A stretch of 64,000 bases of DNA, from contig JABUFA010000011.1 of assembly GCA_013314755.1 (NCBI GenBank), positions 1 to 64,000 on the forward strand, in the 5' to 3' direction. Shown here piece after piece: positions 16,586 through 48,770 of this stretch (its first letter is position 1; the number at the start of each line of letters is the position of its first letter). The notes under the pieces were generated by a model, which worked only from the letters and a program-made list of their open reading frames with translations, made no database searches and was not told where the DNA came from. Both the position numbers and the translations under genes were made by a program. This DNA is from Chthonomonadia bacterium. GTDB lineage: Bacteria > Armatimonadota > HRBIN16.

Positions 16586-16667
16586 GCCCGGGTGGCGGAA
16601 TCGGTAGACGCACGGGACTTAAAATCCCGGGCCGTAAGGCGTGCGGGTTCGAGTCCCGCCCCGGGCA
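16586..16667 (+). tRNA. tRNA-Leu (UAA)
   Basis: A complete class II tRNA fold. Acceptor GCCCGGG (16586-16592) pairs with CCCGGGC (16660-16666), discriminator A at 16667. The anticodon stem CGGGA/TCCCG (16613-16617, 16625-16629) encloses the loop CTTAAAA with anticodon TAA at 16620-16622. A short variable arm follows, then the T stem GCGGG/CCCGC with loop TTCGAGT (16643-16659). CCA is not encoded. Identity as leucine follows from the anticodon, long variable arm and A73. Confidence 0.97.
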
Positions 16668-16705
16668 CTTCAGTCATGTCAAACGCTGTATCTTGAGGAG
16701 GAGAG

Positions 16706-48095: not shown

Positions 48096-48101
48096 CAAAA
48101 C

Positions 48102-48129
48102 AAAGGGGGCATCCCACGATGCCCCCTTT
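48102..48129. terminator. Bidirectional intrinsic terminator
   Basis: GGGGGCATC (48105-48113) and GATGCCCCC (48118-48126) form a perfect stem around CCAC, flanked by AAA on the left and TTTA on the right, so it can work for both the DHOD-like gene (+) and flgM (-). Confidence 0.85.
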
Positions 48130-48177: not shown

Positions 48178-48489
48178 TTACCGCATGTTATCGGCAACGG
48201 TGCGCCGAACGATAAGGTCTGCAATCTCTGCCGAGGAGACGTTGTATTCACCTGCTTCGATTTTCTGGCGGAGCTCCTGCACGATTTCCTCGCGCACATC
48301 CGGGATTTCGTCCAGAATGAACTTAATCTGCCGAATTTCCTGGGCGCGAGGCGAGAGCTCGACCACCGCCGCAGGCGAAAGAGCCTCCTGACCCTCATCT
48401 GGCGCCGGGGCAGACACCACTGCCGCACCCACCCTGCCGATGCGGCTTAACTGCAGCACCCGGCTGTACTCCTCCACGGATATTTTCAT
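48178..48489 (-). CDS. flgM: Anti-sigma-28 factor FlgM
   Basis: A 103-residue protein matching FlgM, which binds the flagellar sigma factor (FliA/SigD) and is itself exported when the hook is complete. The N-terminus MKISVEEYSRVLQLSRIG and the middle VVELSPRAQEIRQIKFILDEIPDVREE lead to the sigma-binding C-terminal helices IEAGEYNVSSAEIADLIVRRTVADNM (in part, key words GEYNVSSAEIADLIVRR). An AAGGAGG site precedes the start by 9-10 bases. It is monocistronic, ends at the bidirectional terminator, and is preceded by a c-di-GMP riboswitch and a sigma-28-like promoter. Confidence 0.9.
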   Translation of the reverse strand: MKISVEEYSRVLQLSRIGRVGAAVVSAPAPDEGQEALSPAAVVELSPRAQEIRQIKFILDEIPDVREEIVQELRQKIEAGEYNVSSAEIADLIVRRTVADNMR

Positions 48490-48551
48490 GACAATCCTGC
48501 CTCCTTCGGCAACGCCTTGCAGAACCGCGTTGCGTCGTTCGGCAGAACTTC

Positions 48552-48648
48552 GGCAGCCGGGCTATCATATCCCGACCCTCGTCGGGACTTAGACCCCAAT
48601 GGCTTTGCGTCCCCACATTTCTGTGGGTTTGCCTTTATCGGATCCGCC
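48552..48648 (-). promoter_or_regulatory. Cyclic di-GMP-I (GEMM) riboswitch upstream of flgM
   Basis: The minus strand carries every conserved block of the GEMM-I aptamer in order: AAAGGCAAACC (about 48636-48626), the P1b hairpin CCCACA-GAAA-TGTGGG with a GNRA tetraloop (48627-48612), GACGCAAAGCC (48611-48601), GGGGTCTAAG (about 48597-48588), the second hairpin TCCCGAC...GTCGGGA (48587-48570), and ATGATAGCC...GGCTGCCG (48568-48551). P1 can form from GGCGG (48648-48644) and CTGCC (48556-48552). The aptamer ends about 60 bases before the flgM start. The G-G preceding CAAACC favours c-di-GMP over cGAMP. Confidence 0.93.
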
Positions 48649-48660
48649 TGTCAATACCCA

Positions 48661-48688
48661 TTATTGGCAAATCTGCAGAAGAACTTTA
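48661..48688 (-). promoter_or_regulatory. Sigma-28-type promoter for the riboswitch-flgM transcript
   Basis: Minus strand TAAAGTTC (48688-48681), 12 bases, GCCAATAA (48668-48661). The flagellar consensus is TAAAGTTT, 11 bases, GCCGATAA, so 14 of 16 positions match with one extra spacer base. Predicted transcription starts near 48654, about six bases before the first riboswitch stem, which fits well. A weaker sigma-70-like TATACT lies further upstream at 48733-48728. Confidence 0.75.
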
Positions 48689-48770
48689 GGGTTCTACCCG
48701 CGATTTTTCGCCTTTTTTTTCAAAATCAGTATAACACGAACGGTACAGGGAAGACAAGGTTGGTATCTTT

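Follow-up and report, generated by a model that had tools for sequence, protein, structure and literature searches.

A c-di-GMP-I aptamer conserved before flgM in Armatimonadota and a predicted c-di-GMP-dependent switch of FlgM synthesis

FlgM is the protein that shuts off the late flagellar genes, and c-di-GMP is the 'settle down' signal, whose usual sense opposes promotion of these genes. In enteric bacteria and Bacillus FlgM is made partly from a sigma-28 promoter, which gives negative feedback, and to our knowledge this circuit has no RNA-level second-messenger input. In the GEMM riboswitches, the two guanines of c-di-GMP are contacted by G20 and C92, and the members that prefer cGAMP carry A20. 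In C. difficile the flgB operon, an early flagellar operon that includes the sigma factor gene, is governed by a class I switch that acts on transcription and is OFF when bound (PMC11477304). Vc2 of V. cholerae, on tfoY, is also OFF, its ligand restricting translation (PMC7371385).

The flgM locus, its aptamer and its putative promoters

The window, that is, the whole stretch of 64,000 nucleotides analyzed here, comes from an uncultured member of Armatimonadota belonging to the HRbin16 group. The original prediction placed a GEMM-I aptamer on the minus strand about 60 bases before the gene of the anti-sigma factor FlgM, and model searches recovered both elements (Table 1). RF01051 matched positions 48643-48549(-) over its full length (1-87/87) with 81.5 bits and an E value of 1.8e-14 (cmscan; the Rfam gathering score is 35), and 59 nt separate the 3' end of the aptamer from the flgM ATG. 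The product of the ORF at 48489-48178(-) matched PF04316 with 56.8 bits (cut-off 25) and TIGR03824 with 53.1 bits (cut-off 40.75). Near relatives, at 81-83% identity, were found in uncultured Armatimonadota, among them bacterium HR16 and Armatimonadetes bacterium RSWS16. As far as sequence goes, the class of the aptamer is confirmed and the gene is flgM; binding of its product to FliA and export via the hook-basal body are predicted.

Table 1. Features of the flgM locus in the window
Feature	Positions	Strand	Basis
Possible housekeeping promoter TTGTCT-N18-TATACT, TG before -10	48728..48757	(-)	TATACTG conserved in aligned relatives
Sigma-28 (FliA)-type promoter CCTAAAG-N16-CCAATAAT	48660..48690	(-)	One mismatch to consensus
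GGCGGA, proposed 5' strand of extended P1, competing for the anti-Shine-Dalgarno strand	48643..48648	(-)	Block conservation and folding
c-di-GMP-I (GEMM-I) aptamer	48549..48643	(-)	RF01051, 81.5 bits; pocket G20 and C92 present
UUCUGCC, anti-Shine-Dalgarno strand	48541..48547	(-)	Invariant in 9/9 class members
Linker hairpin GCAACGC...GCGUUGC, nested in the anti-Shine-Dalgarno:Shine-Dalgarno helix	48509..48533	(-)	Two compensatory pair changes
Shine-Dalgarno region AAGGAGGCAGGA	48495..48506	(-)	Sequence; GGAGGCAGGAT invariant in 9/9
flgM, anti-sigma-28 factor, 103 aa, single-gene unit	48178..48489	(-)	PF04316 and TIGR03824 above cut-off
Intrinsic-terminator-like hairpin 3' of flgM, AAAGGGGGCAUC-GUGG-GAUGCCCCCUUU, U-rich tail	48096..48129	(-)	Read from sequence

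This lone flgM lies between a dihydroorotate-dehydrogenase-like gene, encoded on the opposite strand, and an upstream gene for a beta-helix protein. The only tRNA in the window is a tRNA-Leu (anticodon TAA) at 16586-16668 (+). The source genome encodes a cognate FliA (TIGR02479, 262 bits; cut-off 189.6) and 11 GGDEF domains, and a Rfam model search of its 3.95 Mb located a sole c-di-GMP-I aptamer, the one before flgM.

The sigma-28-type promoter, for which the consensus is CTAAAG-N16-CCGATAAT, has a predicted transcription start at about 48655-48652. Motifs with up to three mismatches precede 81 of the 96 flgM-linked aptamers, compared with ~3% of shuffles, and are missing from most of the phylum's aptamers without flgM linkage. 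At the same stringency 64 sites were counted in the whole source genome, and 44 for the reversed pattern; this total is mostly due to chance, and therefore the weight rests on the near-perfect sites alone. Six sites show at most one mismatch. They include those before flgM, fliP, a flagellar rod gene, cheB and a GGDEF gene, and one sits within an unrelated reading frame. A two-mismatch site was found before a PilZ gene. The sigma-28-type sites at C5:210328 and C57:10242 of the source genome stand before the PilZ gene and, 276 nt upstream, the GGDEF gene, and thus the c-di-GMP components themselves may belong to the FliA regulon.

Conservation of the flgM-linked aptamer in Armatimonadota

The aptamer was present in 173 and FlgM in 215 of 291 Armatimonadota genomes, and in 138 genomes from 17 family-level groups the aptamer lies directly before flgM on the same strand. 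Paired Rfam and Pfam coordinates placed it 164-263 nt before the FlgM domain, again on the same strand, in 48 genomes. We collected 150 flgM leaders, and the aptamers of these 48 genomes served to train a covariance model, R1. Its search of 100 other leaders revealed 33 more aptamers, all on the flgM strand. In total R1 added to the linkage count 20 genomes outside the family-level group f16 and two within it. In f16 (85 genomes), 69 of 72 Rfam matches are located directly before flgM, in 68 genomes. Of the ten genomes in the window's class, nine have exactly one aptamer, in each case before flgM. No aptamer was seen at the flgM loci examined from f20, f24, f36-f43 and f45, nor at the FlgM loci of four Bdellovibrio genomes and one planctomycete genome. 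Chance or decay as the origin of the arrangement is ruled out because it has been kept in 138 genomes.

Some other aptamer contexts were recorded in the phylum. A second aptamer at L034 (G225 C5:8747-8836) has a perfect sigma-28-type promoter before it and no recognisable FlgM behind it. The c-di-GMP-I aptamer at L035 (G208 C237) stands before a reading frame that, judged by eye, resembles an HD-GYP phosphodiesterase with GAF and possibly GGDEF parts. Tandem aptamers lie close together at G208 C116:12661-12861 and G208 C93:57369-57570, and further tandem pairs occur at G227 C32, G226 C297, G228 C56 and G044 C283.

The two-hairpin fold of the c-di-GMP-I class covaries in this phylum, with double-sided changes at 16 of 21 consensus pairs among 48 aptamer sequences. 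The basal helix P1, which is absent from the Rfam model, covaries between families (GAUG/CGUC, GACG/CGUU, GACAG/CUGUC and others). Its complementarity averages 4.05 bp, compared with 2.18 for family-swapped strands, for which no value above 2.63 arose in 500 trials. Members of the window's class, the window among them, have a P1 proper of only two pairs (CG/CG).

Concerning the ligand pocket, position 20 is G in all 96 aligned flgM leaders, the window included, and C92 is found in 95 of them and likewise in the window. The A at position 20 that marks the cGAMP-selective GEMM-Ib aptamers was found in none. Since G20 is universally kept, the pocket points to c-di-GMP rather than cGAMP as the predicted ligand. 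The same residues make it very improbable that the ligand is another dinucleotide such as cGAMP, or something new, a reading that would apply at least to the divergent aptamers of f16. These flgM-linked aptamers mostly score just 30-46 bits (e.g. G089 C1:192856-192939; L201, L215) and their P2 hairpin is rebuilt as GGCAAGACGGGG-GCGA-CCCCGATCACGCAAAG, both of which would suit a different ligand. In f16 the aptamer lies ~30 nt from the start codon, and its affinity, ligand and platform may differ from the rest.

Proposed expression platforms and the predicted sign of control

Two output devices were seen in the phylum: an anti-Shine-Dalgarno (anti-SD) strand, and a U-tailed terminator using the aptamer 5' strand. 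In f6, f8, f9 and f10 the role of the anti-SD falls to the 3' strand of P1, which can pair with the SD region (GGAGGCAA), and the mean SD openness of these groups rose from 0.10-0.24 to 0.44-0.57 when the aptamer and P1 were enforced in folding. Anti-SD duplex energies exceeded cross-family controls in f6, f8, f9, f15 and f17. The leaders of f32-f35 carry GUUUGCCUUUUU, or a sequence close to it, that can pair mostly over 8-18 bp with the 5' strand of the aptamer (AAAAAGGCAAAC) to give a terminator with a U run at its end. Because this terminator uses up the 5' strand of the aptamer, a bound ligand is expected to stop it from forming. Both platforms therefore predict that c-di-GMP turns FlgM ON, a sign that we infer from the anatomy of the leaders. 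No platform was identified in the leaders of f7 and f16.

The opposite sign, with bound c-di-GMP lowering FlgM and high c-di-GMP releasing sigma-28, has its precedents in C. difficile (flgB operon) and V. cholerae (tfoY), where the class I switches are OFF when bound, and would suit the SD of the window, which is masked at equilibrium with the aptamer formed. We regard it as unlikely, because the free state of f6, f8, f9 and f10 hides the SD and P1 exposes it, because the f32-f35 terminator would be prevented by the ligand, and because c-di-GMP would then promote the late flagellar genes, contrary to its usual sense. The preferred ON sign was already part of the original prediction, in which the 3' side of P1 would mask the SD and c-di-GMP could raise FlgM. 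The openness values of f6, f8, f9 and f10 bear this out; in the window the coupling proved weak, so that a switch there would need kinetics.

The leader of the window's class is variable except for three conserved blocks, GACAGGYGGATCCG, CCGAAGTTCTGCC and GGAGGCAGGAT. The first is kept in all nine class members, with a single substitution (C to T in G009) that retains a G-U pair, and the bases from there to the -10 vary. UUCUGCC, in CCGAAGTTCTGCC, is complementary both to GGCGGA, in GACAGGYGGATCCG, and to GGCAGGA, in GGAGGCAGGAT, and these mutually exclusive strands are conserved. The strands first proposed for the masking, CTGCC of P1 and GGCAG of the SD, are both present (48556-48552 and 48501-48497), but folding selects the longer second copy UUCUGCC (48547-48541) that lies between them. 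In the full leader it pairs with GGCAGGA (48501-48495) at a probability of ~1.0, whether or not the aptamer is enforced. The arms of the nested linker hairpin show G-C to A-U and A-U to G-C changes between the window and its relatives, within a variable linker. The window leader is judged to contain no intrinsic terminator, as the SD rather than a U run follows this hairpin.

In nascent chains with the core enforced, GGCGGA:UCUGCC reached probabilities of 0.90-0.98 ahead of SD synthesis in eight of nine genomes; the exception was G003, in which the extended P1 reached 0.27 and then 0.85. This nascent fold is compatible with switching. Values were similar in most genomes without the core enforced, and therefore the nascent fold alone is no proof of ligand dependence. 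At equilibrium, the extended P1 with a free anti-SD strand lies ~13 kcal/mol above the ground state in the window. In this model the SD of the window, whose freeing was predicted, remains masked also when the aptamer is imposed on the fold. On enforcing the extension, the class mean SD openness hardly rose, from 0.54 to only 0.60; in the window, part of the SD re-paired with UUGCC of the linker. Covariation scarcely tests the extension helix because it is nearly invariant within the class. The small coupling at equilibrium favours a co-transcriptional, kinetic mode for the window, in which bound ligand would delay strand exchange; the modelled folds fit this mode and do not prove it.

The weak equilibrium coupling to the SD would also be expected if the functional aptamer acted mainly through transcript stability or a released leader RNA, and not through flgM translation. 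A paper known by its title from the references of PMC7371385 reports that a V. cholerae Vc2 leader governs how stable an upstream small RNA is. Such a role appears quite improbable here, as the anti-SD and SD blocks are invariant in the class whereas the remaining linker is variable, and as the linkage to flgM has been kept, with 69 of 72 f16 aptamers at this gene.

A predicted circuit and its relation to known systems

We consider it probable that the c-di-GMP-I riboswitch in the flgM leader makes FlgM synthesis c-di-GMP-dependent, as an ON switch of the kinetic type. The leader would be transcribed from the sigma-28-dependent promoter and perhaps also from the housekeeping one. In the growing chain the aptamer would fold and GGCGGA (48648-48643) would pair with UCUGCC (48546-48541), extending the basal stem. 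With c-di-GMP bound, this stem would hold, the anti-SD strand would be kept off and flgM would be translated; without c-di-GMP, GGCAGGA of the SD region would capture UUCUGCC and block translation. High c-di-GMP would consequently raise FlgM, inhibit FliA and turn the late flagellar genes down. We lean slightly towards the broader view that switching flgM ON by c-di-GMP is an ancient part of flagellar control throughout the phylum, in which the aptamer was kept, the output device, anti-SD strand or terminator, was swapped and the sign preserved. On this view sigma-28 would transcribe its own inhibitor, which would be made only when c-di-GMP is present, and so the signal would gate the sigma-28 negative feedback loop.

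The data suggest a direct RNA wire from c-di-GMP to the flagellar sigma factor in much of Armatimonadota, a phylum whose flagellar regulation has hardly been studied. Three elements go beyond the original prediction: the sigma-28-type promoter, the conservation across the phylum and the second platform, a terminator. In the literature covered, to which the founding GEMM papers did not belong, we found no report of a c-di-GMP riboswitch associated with FlgM, anti-sigma factors or Armatimonadetes. If true, c-di-GMP would be joined to the sigma-28 checkpoint by RNA alone, a route that we have not found described. The phylum would then also offer an unusually clean natural series in which aptamer, target gene and promoter type stay the same and the expression platform takes two forms that apparently preserve the sign of control.

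Compared with known systems, the locus shares with the sigma-28/FlgM circuit of enteric bacteria and Bacillus the position of flgM behind a sigma-28-type promoter. It resembles the c-di-GMP-I class (RF01051) in its full-length match, two hairpins, GNRA tetraloop, G20/C92 pocket and a variable P1 feeding a proposed expression platform, and differs from it in having an anti-sigma factor as target, a link to a single gene family that recurs across the phylum and a sigma-28-type promoter in front. Like the C. difficile flgB switch it places a class I c-di-GMP aptamer on flagellar genes, but it is predicted to be ON, to control flgM alone and, in the window's class, to act on translation (PMC11477304). 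With Vc2 on tfoY it shares a class I aptamer and, by prediction, a translational output; the gene is another one, and the anatomy found here predicts that the ligand permits translation (PMC7371385).
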